A program made the translations under genes and the position numbers. Shown in pieces: positions 6,258 to 28,041 of a stretch of DNA of 64,000 nt. Each line of letters opens with the position of its first letter. The first letter of the stretch is position 1. The notes under the pieces were generated by a model. That model did not search any database. It worked only from the letters and a program-made list of their open reading frames with translations, and was not told where the DNA came from. The stretch is from an uncultured Helicobacteraceae bacterium. Lineage in GTDB: Bacteria > Campylobacterota > Campylobacteria > Campylobacterales > Helicobacteraceae. The stretch is taken from the NCBI GenBank assembly GCA_947588965.1, contig CANQAN010000004.1, positions 1 through 64,000 on the forward strand, given 5' to 3'.

Positions 6258-7196
6258 ATGTTAGATTTAGCGATTATCGGTGGTGGTCCGGCTGGATTGA
6301 GCGCGGGATTATATGCAACACGTGGCGGCTTAAAAAATGTCGTTATGTTTGAAAAAGGAATGCCCGGAGGACAAATCACTTCTAGCAGTGAAATGGAAAA
6401 TTATCCCGGTGTTGCAGAGGTCAAAAGTGGATTTGACTTTATGGCGCCTTGGCAGGAGCAATGTTTCCGCTTCGGATTGAAGCATGAGATGGCAGAGGTT
6501 GAACGCGTTTTGAAGCAAGGAGAGCATTTTATCTTAATATTAAGCGACAAAAAGCAAATTGAAGCGAAGTCTGTGATTGTCGCAACAGGAGGAAGTCCTA
6601 AAAAATCAGGTGTCAAAGGAGAGGATGTCTTTTGGGGAAAGGGCGTAAGTTCTTGCGCAACTTGCGATGGGTTTTTTTATAAGAATAAAGAAGTTGCAAT
6701 CTTAGGCGGTGGCGATACGGCAATAGAAGAGGCAATATATCTTGCAAAAATCTGCTCTAAAGTCACCGTGATTCATCGCAGAAATGAATTTCGCTCTTCA
6801 CCCATCACGCTAGAACGTGCCAAAAAAGAATCCAACATAGAGTTCCTAACCCCTTATGGAATTGAAGAAATTTGCGGAGATGATTCTGGTGTCACGGGAT
6901 TGAAGCTTAAAAATTTAGAAAATGGAAGCACAAAATCACTTGATATCGCTTGTCTTTTTGTGTTAATTGGTTACAATGTCAATAATTCTGTACTTTTTCA
7001 AGAAGATAAAAGCACAATTTGCGCTGTAAGCGAATATGGTGAGGCTATTGTGAATCTCAAAATGGAGACGAATGTTCCCGGATTATTTGTCGCAGGTGAT
7101 TTAAGGATTTGCGCTCCTAAGCAAGTGGTGTGTGCTGCAGCAGATGGTGCGACAGCGGCATTGGGTGCAATTGAATATATTGAACATCATAAATAA
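6258..7196 (+). CDS. trxB: thioredoxin reductase
   Basis: The 312-residue low-molecular-weight thioredoxin reductase transfers electrons from NADPH through FAD to thioredoxin. It shows the FAD-binding [19 protein letters not shown] at the N-terminus, the redox pair CATC at residues 133-136, the NADPH-binding [14 protein letters not shown] with HRRNEFRSS, and the C-terminal FAD motif [28 protein letters not shown] ribosome binding site GAGGAGA is placed six bases before the ATG. It completes the trxA-unknown-trxB operon and is followed nine bases later by dapB. Confidence 0.98.
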
Positions 7197-7205
7197 AGGA
7201 AAAAT

Positions 7206-7973
7206 ATGCTTGGCATTGGTGTTTTTGGAGCGGGTGGTCGCGTAGGTCAATTGGTTGTGGAGTTAGCAAAAAAGAGCGATGCAGTGAAATTAGAATCCGT
7301 TTATGTGCGCAGGGATTTGGATTTTTCTATCGATCCGGGTGTTTTAATCACAAGTGATTTAAAAATCCTCTTAGAGAGTAGTGATGTGGTAATTGATTTC
7401 ACAACAGCGGAGGGAACACAAGCTCTGTTAGAGACAGCCCTTAAAGACCCCAAGCCTATCGTCATTGGAACGACGGGACTTGAAGCCCATCACGAAAATC
7501 TCATTAAGGAAGCCACAAAAAAAATGCCCATTTTATATGCAAGCAATATGTCTTTAGGTATCGCAGTGCTCAATAAAGCAATCAGTCTTGTTGCTAATGT
7601 ACTGCCCGATTTTGATATTGAGATCGTGGAGACACATCACAGACACAAAAAAGACTCCCCAAGCGGAACAGCCTTAAGATTAGCACAAACCTGCGCAAAG
7701 TCACGTGGGCTAGATTTAGACAAGGTGCGCAAAAGCGGAAGAAACGGTAATATCGGCGCAAGAGATTCAAAAGAAATTGGTGTGATGTCACTACGTGGAG
7801 GAGATGTTACAGGAATCCACAATGTCGGATTCTATGGAAATGGAGAGTATTTAGAGCTCATACACACTGCAACTTCACGAGCCACTTTCGCACAAGGAGC
7901 CATCAAGGCTGCGCTATGGTTGCACAAACAGCCTAATGGGTTGTATGGCATTGAAGACGCACTAGGATTATAA
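7206..7973 (+). CDS. dapB: 4-hydroxy-tetrahydrodipicolinate reductase
   Basis: DapB makes tetrahydrodipicolinate in the diaminopimelate/lysine pathway, the same intermediate used by the dapD product encoded at 51.9 kb. The 255-residue protein has the N-terminal nucleotide loop GVFGAGGRVGQLV, the IVIGTTGL segment, the catalytic ETHHRHKKDSPSGTALRLAQ block (about 141-160) and GDVTGIHNVGFYGNGE. It sits in a dapB-purF-radical SAM gene string with gaps of two and ten bases, so translation is probably coupled. Confidence 0.97.
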   Translation: MLGIGVFGAGGRVGQLVVELAKKSDAVKLESVYVRRDLDFSIDPGVLITSDLKILLESSDVVIDFTTAEGTQALLETALKDPKPIVIGTTGLEAHHENLIKEATKKMPILYASNMSLGIAVLNKAISLVANVLPDFDIEIVETHHRHKKDSPSGTALRLAQTCAKSRGLDLDKVRKSGRNGNIGARDSKEIGVMSLRGGDVTGIHNVGFYGNGEYLELIHTATSRATFAQGAIKAALWLHKQPNGLYGIEDALGL

Positions 7974-7975
7974 GT

Positions 7976-9379
7976 GTGAGAATCAGTCAATCCGCCAAAA
8001 CAGACCAAACTGCACAATCAAAAGAGAAATGGAAAGAAGAATGCGCTGTTGTGGGTGTTTATAATGCTCATAATGCCGCAGGACTGGCCTATTATGCGCT
8101 CTTTTCTATGCAGCATAGAGGACAAGAAGCAACAGGAATTGCAACAAGCAATGGAGAGAAAATCACAGCCATCAAGGATTGTGGGCTTGTTACAGAAGTT
8201 TTTTGTGATGAGAGCTTGAAGTCTCTCAAAGGCTCTAGCGCAGTTGGACACAATCGCTACTCCACAGCGGGGGGCGATTCTTTGGTGGATGCACAGCCAT
8301 TGTTTGCGCGTTATGATTTAGGTGAAATCGCCATTGTTCATAATGGGAACTTGACAAATGCGACAAAAATCCGTGAATCCCTCATTAAAGAGGGAGCGAT
8401 ATTTCAAAGTTGCATGGACACAGAGATTCTTATTCATTTGATTGCAAGAGCGCAACAAGAAAATTTGATTGACAGAATCAAAGAATCCATTTGTAAGCTT
8501 GAAGGAGCCTTTTGTTTTGCGATTCTAAGTCGTAAAAAAATGTTTGTTGTACGTGACAGATTTGGATTCCGCCCTTTAAGTTTAGGAGAGGTTACAAATC
8601 CCGATGGCTCTAAGGGCTATGTCGTTGCAAGTGAAACTTGTGCTTTTGATTTAATCGGGGCGAAATTTTTACGCGATGTGGAACCCGGCGAAATGCTTGT
8701 GTTTTCAAAAAAAGGAATGGAATCACATAAGATTTTACCCCAAAATCCCCATCCTTGTGTCTTTGAATACATTTACTTTGCACGTCCCGACAGCCAAGTA
8801 TTTGGGCATTTAGTCTATAATATCCGCAAAAATATGGGCAAGGAATTAGCCCTTGAGAATCCTACAGACGCAGACTTGGTGATTCCCGTTCCCGATAGTG
8901 GTGTCGCTGCCGCGCTTGGATATTCCAGACAGAGCGGAATCCCCTTTGAGCTTGGAATCATACGCAATCATTACGTCGGAAGAACTTTCATTGAGCCAAC
9001 ACAACAAATTCGAGAATTAAAAGTGCGCTTGAAGTTAAATCCCATACGAGAACTCATTGAAAATCAGCGCATTATTATCATTGATGACTCTATTGTGAGA
9101 GGCACAACAAGTCGTCAAATCATTAAGATTCTACGTGATTGTGGCGCAAAAGAGATTCATATGAGAATCTCATCGCCCCCTACGATTTCCCCCTGTTTTT
9201 ATGGTGTGGATACGCCCAATAAAGAAGACTTGATTTGCGCGACAATGAGCCAAGAAGAAGTGCGCTCTTACATTGGCGCAGATTCCCTCTCATTTCTTTC
9301 ATTAGATGGTTTAAAGCGCAGTGTTGGCGCAGAAAATTATCAGTATTGTCAAGCCTGTTTTGATGGTCAATATTTATAG
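7976..9379 (+). CDS. purF: amidophosphoribosyltransferase
   Basis: PurF makes phosphoribosylamine from PRPP and glutamine, the first committed step of purine synthesis. The GTG start at 7976 is two bases after the dapB stop. The 467-residue product has a 22-residue propeptide before the nucleophile Cys23 (EECAVVGVY), the glutamine amidotransferase core (GHNRYSTAGG, VHNGNLTN, DTEILIHL) and the PRPP site IIIDDSIVRGTTSRQIIKIL at about residues 363-382. C-terminal cysteines (about 409, 422, 459 and 462) may hold an iron-sulfur cluster as in Bacillus-type enzymes; I did not verify the spacing. H. pylori lacks this gene, which argues for an enterohepatic species. Confidence 0.95.
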   Translation: MRISQSAKTDQTAQSKEKWKEECAVVGVYNAHNAAGLAYYALFSMQHRGQEATGIATSNGEKITAIKDCGLVTEVFCDESLKSLKGSSAVGHNRYSTAGGDSLVDAQPLFARYDLGEIAIVHNGNLTNATKIRESLIKEGAIFQSCMDTEILIHLIARAQQENLIDRIKESICKLEGAFCFAILSRKKMFVVRDRFGFRPLSLGEVTNPDGSKGYVVASETCAFDLIGAKFLRDVEPGEMLVFSKKGMESHKILPQNPHPCVFEYIYFARPDSQVFGHLVYNIRKNMGKELALENPTDADLVIPVPDSGVAAALGYSRQSGIPFELGIIRNHYVGRTFIEPTQQIRELKVRLKLNPIRELIENQRIIIIDDSIVRGTTSRQIIKILRDCGAKEIHMRISSPPTISPCFYGVDTPNKEDLICATMSQEEVRSYIGADSLSFLSLDGLKRSVGAENYQYCQACFDGQYL

Positions 9380-23541: not shown

Positions 23542-26500
23542 ATGAAATTTGAAAAAATTGAGCCAAAAGACTTTATAGGAGACTTTAAGGGCTTTCAACC
23601 AAAATTGAATTTGGGGGAATTCACAGAGGCAGTAGAACATTACACAGAACAGATTGAGGACAATAAATCATCTCAAAATGAAGACGGACTTGTCCCAGAT
23701 CTAAAAGATTTTTTCGAACGATTAGGTTGTCAAGCACGATTAAAACACAAACACACCGGTAAGAGCGAAATCGATCTCGCTCTGCTTAAAGACGAAAAAG
23801 ACAAAGAAGTTGAAGTTATCATTGAGACAAAACACCCAAACAAGAACGAATTCCCCAAAAACGACGATCTTAACTGCAAAGCCCTGCATGAATGCATTCT
23901 ATACTATCTAAACGAACGCGAAGAAAAAAACAATTACAATCTCAAGCACATCATCATTACAAATTTCTATCAATTCTATATCTTTAAGGCGAGTGAGTTT
24001 GAGAGATGCTTTTATAAAAATAAAAAGATAAAAAAACTTCATAATGCACTCAAAAGCAATTCTATAATTAAAAATACCGAGGATTTTTATAGAGCACTTA
24101 AAAAAGGTTTTAGAGGAGACGGGGAGGAAAATTTATCTAATGACGTATGCAAATACACCACTTTTGATCTTGATCTGCGCGACGAAAAAACTCTCACAAC
24201 CGCCCACAGAATCCTAAGCAGAGCCTTTTTGTATAACGAAAAACAAAGTGAGCTAAACGCGCTCAATAGGGGCTTTTATAACGAACTTCTGCACATTTTA
24301 GGTCTTAAGGAAAATGCCCAAAAAGGCAGAGCCACCATCGATCTTATCAATTCTAGTGAGCAAAAATATGGCTTTGCAAGACACATTCAAAAGAAGCTAG
24401 AAAGTGAGGGACATCTTAAAGAATCCGATCCTGCAGAAAATACAGAAAACAGAGAAATGCAAGAATCCACAATGAGATATCTCATCATTTGGCTCAATCG
24501 CATTTTGTTTTTGAAGCTCATTGAAGCGCATTTGTTGAGCTTTAATGAGAACGATAAGAATCTTAGATTCCTCACTTCAGAAAAAATTTCACGTTTTGAT
24601 ACTCTCAGTCATTTGTTTTTTGAAGTTTTGGCTAAAAATCAAAAGGACAGAGACGCTGATAAGGACTTTAATTTCCTGCCCTATTTGAATTCTTCACTCT
24701 TTACCCGTGATAATGAGCAAGAACCTCTAAATATTACAGACCTTGATAGCGTTCTAGAAATTAAACTCTTCAAATCAAGCATTTTGAAAAAAGATGAGAG
24801 CTTTAAAGACAAATATAGAGGCAAAGAAAAAGTCAAATTTCTTGCCTATCTCTTTGATTTTCTGGCTTGTTATGACTTCGGTAAAAGTGAGGATTCTGAA
24901 AACCAAGAAAAGAATCCCCAACAAAGAGATCTCATAAACTCTAGTGTTTTAGGGCTTATCTTTGAAAAGCTCAATGCCTACAAAGAGGGCAGCCACTACA
25001 CGCCAAACAGCATTACAAGCCACATTTGTAAAACCAGCCTAGAGAGGATTGTGATTAAGAAGTTTAATGCAGAAAATCCCCAATGGAATGCAAAAACACT
25101 CAAGGACATTAAAGACGAAATTCTTAATGAGATAAGGGACAACAGAGAAAATCAAGAAAAAATCAAAGAAAAATACAAAAATTTGCTAGAGGGCATTAAA
25201 ATCTGTGATCCCGCCGTTGGAAGTGGGCATTTCCTCGTTTCCGCCCTCAATGAAATGATAAGAATCTACTATGAACTCAGACTATGTTCAGAAAATATTT
25301 TGAGCTTAGATATTTCTAACGATGAACTCATTATTAATGAGAACTTTAAGTATAAAAAACCAAAAAATATAAAAGAACCAAACCACATAATCCAACAAGA
25401 GCTTTTCAATCTCAAAAAAACCATCATTGAAAACAATCTCTTTGGTGTGGATATCAACCCCATTTCTTGCGAGATTACGAGGCTTAGACTTTGGATAGAA
25501 TTGCTCAAAAACAGCTATTATAATAAACTTGAGGGCAATTCTCATGATCTAGAAACCCTCCCCAACATTGACATAAACATTAAATGCGGAAATTCTTTAG
25601 TTTCATATTTTGATATTAAGCAAGATTTAACGCATTATCCAAACATAAAAGCAAATATGGAAGGATACAAACAGCTTGTTTGGTTCTATAAAGAGAGAGC
25701 AGACAATAAAAAAGAACTTGATAAAAAAATCAAAGACCTTCAAGAATCATTTAAAAAATTCTGTTTTCAAGATAAGTTCAAAAAAGAACTTAAATTTTTT
25801 TCAAACATGTGCGATAAATATGCTGAAAAATACAGCGATTATCTCTTAGGTGAATGGCTCATAAAAGAGGCTACATATACTTCTAAGCGCATTCAAGGGG
25901 GTTTGTATGGCAGTCTCAACGAACAGCAAAAACAAGAAGCACAGAAGGACTTTGAAGCTATCAAGCGCTACTATAATCAAATTTTTGATATTGAGAGTTA
26001 CCATCCCTTTGAATGGCGCTTCGCCTTTCCCGAAGTGCTTAATGAAAATGGCGCTTTTGAGGGCTTTGATTGTATCATGGGTAATCCCCCCTATATCCGC
26101 CATGAGGGCATTAAAGATCTCAAGCCCCATTTAGAAAGAGCCTTTAGCGTCTATACAGGTACAAGCGATATTTACACCTATTTCTATGAACTCGGTGCCA
26201 AACTCCTAAAACATGGTGGAATCCTCAACTTCATCACAAGCGACAAATACACAAGAGCGGGCTATGGAGAGAAATTAAGAGAGTTTTTGCTAGAGAAAAC
26301 AACCCTGCTAAGCTATGTGGAGCTTGGTGGGGGTGTCTTTGAGAGTGCCACTGTGGACACCTCCATCCTAGAATTCTGCAATCAAAAGCCCCAAAAAGAA
26401 TCGCATTTCAGCTACTATCACCCCATGCAAAAAAGTGGCAACCTTGAGCTAGGAGAGGAGATGCGCATCGCTCAATCTTCGCTTAGCAAAGAAGCCTTTA

Positions 26501-28041
26501 TTTTCGTTGATGAAAAAACCGCAAAGCTCAAAGAAAAGATAGAGAGACACGGCACACCCCTCAAAGATTGGGACATTTCTATATATAGAGGAGTTTTAAC
26601 AGGCTACAATGAGGCTTTTATCATTGATTCAAACAAGAGGGAGGAGATTCTAAGTGCTTGCGATTCTAAGCAAAGGGACATTAATGGGCAAACAGAGAGG
26701 GAGCGCACAGAAGAGCTCATTAAGCCCATTTTGCGCGGCAGAGACATCAAAAGATATTCTTATGAATGGGCGGATTTGTGGTTAATCAACACACATAATG
26801 GCTACACAAGCTCCAAAGGAATATACATTGCTCCTATTGATATAAACAACTACCCTACTCTCAAAGCACATTTTGATAATATCGCAAATGCAAACAAAAC
26901 AAGCAAAGGCAAAGGATTCTCTAATAGAGATGACAAAGGAATCACACCCTATAATCTCAGAAATTGTGCCTATTTAGAGGAATTTGCCAAGCCAAAGATC
27001 ATTTACAGCGAAATTGTGCGCAACCCACAATTCTATCTTGATGATGGCACATTTAAATTTGGGCATTTTTATGCAGAAGCCACGAGCTTCATCTTAACAG
27101 GAAACAAGGATTTCAAAGGCTCTCTAACCTACCTCCTTGGAATCCTCCACTCTAAGCTCATAACCTATGCTTTCAAATCTTTCTATGCAGGAGGAGGCTT
27201 AGGCACGGACGGATACCGCTACAAAAAGGCCTTTATAGAGCATCTTCCCATTCCCAAACTCACAAAGAAAAAGGAGGAGGAATTCACACAACTCATACAA
27301 AAACTCATAGATGCCCAAAATTCCCTCGATTCTACACAAAAAGACAAAAACACACAACAAGCGCAAGAACGTTTCAATACCCTAGAATCCAAACTCAACG
27401 ACTTAGTGTTTAAACTCTATGGCTTAAGCGATGAGGAAGTCAAATTAATTGGGGGGGGGGGGCAGAATAACTATTGCCTTTGTCTTGCCCTCTTGCTCCT
27501 CTCAAACGTGGAGGCGCAGTGCCTAGAGCTTGTCTCTCAAATCTGTGAGAACTTTGAATCTAAACTTATGAGTGCCTTCAGATTCTGTGAGGGACTGAAA
27601 GAGCCGAAGACAGATGAGAATTCCTATGAACCCAAATTGATATGGGCAGAAACTACGCAAATCGTACAAGTTGCGCTTGATAAAGAGGGAATGTTTTTAG
27701 ACAAGACAGCCTTTATGCTTAAAGGAAACAATCTAGAATATCTGAATGCCATATTTGCTTCAAAGATAGCTTTTTGGTATTTCAAACAACTTTGTAGCAC
27801 ACTTGGAACAAAGGGCTTAAGTATGAGTAAAATCTACATAGAACAACTTCCCATTCCACAAATCACAGAAGAAAATGAATCTCTCATCACTCAAATCACA
27901 GCACACACTAATGAGATTCTAAAACACAAACAAAAAGACAAAAACGCCAACACACAAACACTAGAGGAGCGCATTGATGAATTGGTGTATAGCCTCTATG
28001 GTCTCAACACAGAGGAAAAAGAAATCATAAAAAAGACTTGA
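23542..28041 (+). CDS. type IIG restriction-modification protein, phase-variable
   Basis: The 1499-residue fused enzyme contains a PD-(D/E)xK-like nuclease site near the N-terminus (Asp78, then Glu95-x-Lys97 in IIETKHP), a helical linker, and an N6-adenine methyltransferase core with motif I DPAVGSGHF (556-564) and motif IV NPPY (848-851). The target-recognition region (about 1000-1300) has the Eco57I/TaqI-type end GYRYKKAFIEHLPIPKL. A 12-G run encodes Gly1304-1307. After it a second, shorter specificity-like stretch repeats the pattern (LNAIFASKIAFWYFKQL, IYIEQLPIPQI) and the tail DELVYSLYGLNTEE, matching NDLVFKLYGLSDEE before the run. Length variation of the run would truncate the protein at 1309 or 1327 residues. 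No partner gene is adjacent. Confidence 0.93.
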   Translation: MKFEKIEPKDFIGDFKGFQPKLNLGEFTEAVEHYTEQIEDNKSSQNEDGLVPDLKDFFERLGCQARLKHKHTGKSEIDLALLKDEKDKEVEVIIETKHPNKNEFPKNDDLNCKALHECILYYLNEREEKNNYNLKHIIITNFYQFYIFKASEFERCFYKNKKIKKLHNALKSNSIIKNTEDFYRALKKGFRGDGEENLSNDVCKYTTFDLDLRDEKTLTTAHRILSRAFLYNEKQSELNALNRGFYNELLHILGLKENAQKGRATIDLINSSEQKYGFARHIQKKLESEGHLKESDPAENTENREMQESTMRYLIIWLNRILFLKLIEAHLLSFNENDKNLRFLTSEKISRFDTLSHLFFEVLAKNQKDRDADKDFNFLPYLNSSLFTRDNEQEPLNITDLDSVLEIKLFKSSILKKDESFKDKYRGKEKVKFLAYLFDFLACYDFGKSEDSENQEKNPQQRDLINSSVLGLIFEKLNAYKEGSHYTPNSITSHICKTSLERIVIKKFNAENPQWNAKTLKDIKDEILNEIRDNRENQEKIKEKYKNLLEGIKICDPAVGSGHFLVSALNEMIRIYYELRLCSENILSLDISNDELIINENFKYKKPKNIKEPNHIIQQELFNLKKTIIENNLFGVDINPISCEITRLRLWIELLKNSYYNKLEGNSHDLETLPNIDINIKCGNSLVSYFDIKQDLTHYPNIKANMEGYKQLVWFYKERADNKKELDKKIKDLQESFKKFCFQDKFKKELKFFSNMCDKYAEKYSDYLLGEWLIKEATYTSKRIQGGLYGSLNEQQKQEAQKDFEAIKRYYNQIFDIESYHPFEWRFAFPEVLNENGAFEGFDCIMGNPPYIRHEGIKDLKPHLERAFSVYTGTSDIYTYFYELGAKLLKHGGILNFITSDKYTRAGYGEKLREFLLEKTTLLSYVELGGGVFESATVDTSILEFCNQKPQKESHFSYYHPMQKSGNLELGEEMRIAQSSLSKEAFIFVDEKTAKLKEKIERHGTPLKDWDISIYRGVLTGYNEAFIIDSNKREEILSACDSKQRDINGQTERERTEELIKPILRGRDIKRYSYEWADLWLINTHNGYTSSKGIYIAPIDINNYPTLKAHFDNIANANKTSKGKGFSNRDDKGITPYNLRNCAYLEEFAKPKIIYSEIVRNPQFYLDDGTFKFGHFYAEATSFILTGNKDFKGSLTYLLGILHSKLITYAFKSFYAGGGLGTDGYRYKKAFIEHLPIPKLTKKKEEEFTQLIQKLIDAQNSLDSTQKDKNTQQAQERFNTLESKLNDLVFKLYGLSDEEVKLIGGGGQNNYCLCLALLLLSNVEAQCLELVSQICENFESKLMSAFRFCEGLKEPKTDENSYEPKLIWAETTQIVQVALDKEGMFLDKTAFMLKGNNLEYLNAIFASKIAFWYFKQLCSTLGTKGLSMSKIYIEQLPIPQITEENESLITQITAHTNEILKHKQKDKNANTQTLEERIDELVYSLYGLNTEEKEIIKKT
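27451..27462. repeat. poly-G tract (12 G), contingency locus inside the type IIG gene
   Basis: Twelve consecutive G are in frame as four glycine codons. With 13 G the reading frame stops after Ala-Glu (protein of 1309 residues). With 11 G it reads 20 further codons and stops (1327 residues). Long G tracts of this size slip frequently in Helicobacter and Campylobacter and are the usual phase-variation device. Confidence 0.93.

Follow-up and report, generated by a model that had tools for sequence, protein, structure and literature searches.

Known phase-variable type IIG enzymes and the gene under study

Phase-variable methyltransferases are usually classed as ON/OFF systems. In Helicobacter pylori, single-molecule real-time (SMRT) sequencing revealed that an added C-terminal domain resembling half of a target-recognition domain (TRD) changes the recognition sequence of two type IIG enzymes, from GGWTAA to GGWCNA for JHP1272 (Hpy99XIV) and from CRTTRA to CRTCNA for HP1353-HP1354 (HpyAXVI); the recognised bases altered were -1 and -2 (Krebes et al., PMC3936762). 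In Campylobacter jejuni NCTC11168, Cj0031/Cj0032 carries a poly-G tract at nucleotide (nt) 2573 of 3732, flanked on either side by conserved domains; a frameshift there is predicted to eliminate both activities and was associated with loss of methylation (PMC4889913). Here, a stretch of 64,000 nucleotides from an uncultured Helicobacteraceae bacterium (GenBank assembly GCA_947588965.1, contig CANQAN010000004.1, positions 1 to 64,000), termed the window, was studied for a type IIG restriction-modification gene on its forward strand at 23542-28041. Slippage in a G12 tract within this gene would yield the enzyme in either a short or a long form, the two differing in recognition; this reading, drawn partly by analogy, is given a probability of about two thirds.

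The window gene is organised like JHP1272 and HP1353-HP1354: a complete type IIG enzyme is followed by a 3' homopolymer tract and then by a domain resembling a portion of that enzyme's TRD. It is therefore read as a probable member of the JHP1272 kind, i.e. of frameshift-mediated specificity switching, and the likeness is one of architecture and not of sequence comparison. The H. pylori genes have a second, upstream ON/OFF tract, whereas none was found for the window gene, as no other G or C run longer than 7 occurs anywhere in the 64 kb; this tract is regarded as an accompanying and not an essential feature. Their add-on comprises about 94 amino acids (aa) with MmeI/TaqII similarity, while that of the window gene comprises 192 aa, includes a helical linker and is TaqI_C-like. 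Unlike the H. pylori genes, the relatives of the window gene form chains of as many as four modules, joined by repeats of several kinds. A search via MmeI_TRD for JHP1272-like genes, covering 33 genomes from the genus to which genome G078 belongs, gave no match.

A sequence-only reading of the gene had named Cj0031 as its precedent. Both are type IIG genes with a poly-G tract inside the coding sequence, but this precedent was the wrong one: the Cj0031 tract lies mid-gene and acts ON/OFF, whereas the window tract comes after a complete TRD, so that the recognition domain is whole before the tract is reached. The window gene was thus not assigned to the Cj0031 kind, and JHP1272 and HP1353-HP1354 fit instead. 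Phase-variable type I hsdS genes, TRD movement (DoMo) and invertible specificity genes likewise exchange TRD modules to diversify specificity. However, they use recombination or inversion, while the switch in the window would be slippage where two modules of a single polypeptide meet.

Anatomy of the enzyme, its G12 tract and its tail

The open reading frame (ORF) is uninterrupted over 1499 codons in the present long form. Its features are listed with the evidence for each, HMM standing for hidden Markov model.

23542-28041, +: type IIG restriction-modification gene, long (present) form, 1499 aa (PADLOC PDLC03612 REase_MTase_IIG)
23611-24921, +: N-terminal region DUF7149 + DUF7814, residues 24-460 (Pfam)
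25207-25227, +: methyltransferase motif I DPAVGSG, residues 556-562 (motif; Pfam Eco57I, MmeI_Mtase)
26083-26094, +: methyltransferase motif IV NPPY, residues 848-851 (motif)
26722-27252, +: complete TaqI_C-like specificity domain, the main TRD, residues 1061-1237 (Pfam profile 1-118 of 118)
26995-27450, +: main half-TRD body, comprising the second TRD half and the C-terminal helices, its last base directly adjoining the tract (half-TRD-body HMM)
27451-27462, +: G12 tract, slippable joint (run count; phases computed in silico)
27463-27633, +: conserved helical linker of the tail (LALLLLSNVEAQCLELVSQICENFESKLMSAFRFCEGL...), conserved across 8 tails (helices from a model)
27634-28035, +: second, add-on half-TRD of the tail (half-TRD HMM E=3e-52; TaqI_C E=1.6e-7; 36% identity to the main copy)

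The match to the PADLOC profile reached 1360 bits and covered residues 1-1305 on profile positions 1-1245 of 1247. Pfam domains of the 1499-aa protein are DUF7149, DUF7814, Eco57I and TaqI_C, and a PD-ExK-like nuclease motif (IDLALL...ETK, residues 77-97, with ETK at 95) lies inside the DUF7149 + DUF7814 region. With a full-profile match, a nuclease motif, methyltransferase motifs I and IV and a specificity domain, the gene is by its anatomy a type IIG restriction-modification enzyme with predicted cleavage and methylation.

The tract of 12 G at codons 1304-1307 was confirmed, with a length taken from a 21-contig draft assembly and a possible error of +/-1. Computed in silico, 12 G give 1499 aa, 13 G give 1309 aa (1303+6) and 11 G give 1327 aa (1303+24), just as the sequence-only reading had it; two of the three phases are the short form and one is the long form. 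The tract directly abuts the end of the half-TRD body, the type IIG profile stops at residue 1305 and relatives without a tail terminate at the equivalent position. As profile, Pfam domains and motifs are all covered before or at the tract, the short forms of 1309 and 1327 aa are complete enzymes by anatomy, from which we infer that they are active. The claim that they keep the nuclease motif and methyltransferase motifs I and IV also held, since ETK (95), DPAVGSG (556) and NPPY (848) all precede the tract.

The tail of 192 aa consists of the helical linker followed by the second half-TRD. The linker has about 50 residues and is common to all 8 tails compared; a tail model of moderate confidence puts its helices at 2-17, 21-30 and 32-42. 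The tail aligned with residues 1146-1303 of the same protein (E=1e-20). When scanned alone, it scored above the gathering score of Pfam TaqI_C over profile positions 29-118 of 118, and this family was matched by all 19 half-TRDs scanned (the window tail and 18 others). The sequence motifs said to be repeated in the two copies were recovered in part. IYIEQLPIP is present once (1431), with FIEHLPIP as its counterpart in the first copy, while LVxxLYGL is shared (1288 and 1481) with the preceding D of the claimed DLVxxLYGL in the first copy only and an E in the second. No second TRD copy was found elsewhere in the source genome. The tail as an independent trans-acting subunit is not favoured, because there is no ATG near its start; among the relatives, a TAATG overlap occurs at one joint only, the second joint of locus L021.

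Chains of half-TRDs with a slippable repeat at each joint

The enzyme was present in 42 of 59 related genomes, and half-TRD matches were obtained in 86 of the 121 genomes of the family, the named members being Helicobacter. An order-wide search returned full-length tails with the linker in Helicobacteraceae only; other families among the matches listed had the half-TRD part alone. An HMM built from half-TRD bodies was run over 66 loci, many of which carry further half-TRDs downstream on the same strand. The longest chain comprises four half-TRDs and three tracts (L022, H. mesocricetorum). The repeats at the joints stand directly after the module end and are G8-G13, C11, (AG)6-18, (TC/CT)7-12 and (AT)9.

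A slippable repeat, counted if within -8 to +30 nt of the half-TRD end, was found at 33/33 internal ends vs 1/88 terminal ends in the 66 loci (p=7e-29 in a Fisher test that takes the loci as independent, which they are not, and that has no phylogenetic correction). The sole terminal end with a repeat sits where the contig ends. Under slightly different rules, an earlier count came to 31/32, the exception being the truncated gene L039 with a G6 run. At every joint with a repeat, one phase enters the next module and the other phases stop within 30 codons in silico. Equivalent joints differ in repeat type (G, C, CT/TC, AT or AG), and the joint classes lie dispersed over the tree of methyltransferase cores, which calls for repeated changes (at least 8 in the case of poly-G joints).

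The open-access literature searched yielded no prior account of chains whose slippable joints differ in the kind of repeat. As the search was limited to this literature, with subscription papers outside it, the result is weak evidence of novelty. The chains and the rule of a slippable repeat at each half-TRD joint are read as new, and the window gene as belonging to the already known JHP1272 kind.

Two further observations concern the modules of these arrays. On the reverse strand of L021 (oriented 7194-8393), a 400-aa protein-kinase-like ORF with an HRDISPNNILL motif lies within the half-TRD array, and half-TRD remnants follow beyond it. L029, L041 and L024 have inserts (CHSERSEESL...QHDK) inside half-TRDs that resemble translated repeat elements inserted in frame.

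Proposed switch and alternatives

Slipped-strand changes of the tract length would move translation between a stop after the first TRD and read-on into the linker and second half-TRD. In the long form, by analogy with JHP1272 and HP1353-HP1354, the add-on half-TRD would most likely displace, or compete with, the equivalent second half of the main TRD. The nuclease and methyltransferase, themselves unchanged, would thereby be directed to another recognition sequence or to one more, and cutting and methylation would shift together. Tract lengths do differ between sister species. H. mesocricetorum (L022) and H. aurati (L092) have one common chain, most of which is 98-99% identical in DNA, while module 2 and the last module have diverged or recombined. 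All three tracts differ in length, with G10/G12/G10 vs G9/G11/G11, values that likewise come from draft assemblies. Most comparable pairs of add-on modules showed a ratio of non-synonymous to synonymous substitutions (dN/dS) of 0.12-0.34.

The downstream half-TRDs might instead be a reservoir of parked cassettes for recombination, their fusion to the enzyme being incidental. This is unlikely, although several findings are in its favour. The tail cassette of L030 behind (TC)12 and the main half-TRD of L100, in different species, have 93% DNA identity that begins at the module start. Cores of 98-100% identity carry different TRDs, namely L100/L101 (98% DNA) and L028/L040 (99.96% over 2.5 kb); the latter two, both in genome G029, diverge after the shared 2.5 kb, one into a three-module chain and the other into a single half-TRD. 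BLASTN of L021/L103 and of L031/L109 gave no DNA-level match. Furthermore, five relatives of other genera have an inverted TRD copy downstream of the type IIG gene, flanked by inverted repeats of 28-424 nt that are mostly 92-100% identical:

L025, 3179-5068: inverted TRD copy
L026, 3287-4680: inverted TRD copy
L027, 2846-4316: inverted TRD copy
L097, 1944-3864: inverted TRD copy
L105, 2022-3319: inverted TRD copy

In several of these five loci one repeat pair is near the boundary between the TRD halves, and the arrangement looks like an invertible specificity switch. However, a reservoir needs neither a slippable repeat at each of the 33 joints nor frames that enter the next module via the repeat, the linker is conserved, and the source genome has no other copy to recombine with. 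Both roles, reservoir and switching, may coexist. Given the slippable joints, the exchange of cassettes and TRDs and the inverted copies, the enzyme family has more than one way of varying its recognition domain.

A plain ON/OFF switch, in which only one form is active because the tail is either needed or kills the enzyme, is marginally less probable again. Cj0031 provides a precedent for it, and AlphaFold2 could not reveal how the tail packs. Yet the tract follows a complete enzyme, tail-less relatives with a single half-TRD are common, and such a switch would have little use for chains of as many as four modules. The joints were in frame in 13/33 and out of frame in 20/33 cases, and the in-frame share is near the 1/3 that would be seen if selection did not act strongly against either state (p=0.46). 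The view of the sequence-only reading that the gene has long and short forms, both with the catalytic parts and a complete first TRD, and is no plain ON/OFF switch agrees with the profile end at 1305, the tail-less relatives, the half-TRD nature of the tail and the joints; the change of specificity itself is what we infer from them. That the tail adjusts the ratio of cutting to methylation, or affinity or oligomerisation, and leaves the recognition sequence as it is, an option named in that earlier reading and in line with a helical and conserved linker, is very improbable, as the add-on modules share sequence classes with main-position half-TRDs and the H. pylori precedent changed specificity (PMC3936762).

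Some points weigh against a specificity switch by slippage at the G12 tract. For the window strain the reading is based on sequence data. The tail is not a complete independent TRD, because it covers only a part of TaqI_C. It is also divergent, with a best main-position match of 43% and a nearest tail of about 52%, and its dN/dS is near 0.4 at saturating distance. The AlphaFold2 models are weak (pLDDT, the model's confidence score, 69 for the tail and 62 for residues 821-1499), and Foldseek of the tail model against the PDB returned chance matches only, with no usable fold match.

With slightly better than even confidence, the specificity switch can be extended to this one type IIG gene family across Helicobacteraceae. 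Its C-terminus would be a ladder of interchangeable half recognition domains with independently acquired slippable repeats (G, C, CT, AT, AG) in between, in which n joints give n+1 specificities by slippage alone, for restriction and modification together. Inversion would act similarly in sister genera, and the window gene would be the one-joint case. If the ladder does function in this way, one gene provides a population with several methylomes and several restriction barriers, and switching need not be toxic to the cell itself, since cutting and methylation rely on one common recognition domain. Slippable repeats at all joints, with none at the terminus, form a simple genome signature for enzymes of multiple specificity, and the joint rule would place the 2013 H. 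pylori case within a wider design. Motif prediction from one assembly could then fail for the same strain a few generations on.

Poly-G tracts were also observed at other places. Some relatives without a chain have one in the N-terminal half of the gene, namely L023 (2077-2088), L032 (2400-2409, oriented), L049 (2557-2567) and L050 (1263-1274, oriented), which would be an ON/OFF switch. Counted with overlaps, G9 words number 230 in the source genome, which has 1.62 Mb in 21 contigs, and there are clusters of them on its contigs C1, C2 and C4. Poly-G tracts are thus common in the source organism although the window has one, and they mark a large candidate set of phase-variable genes.
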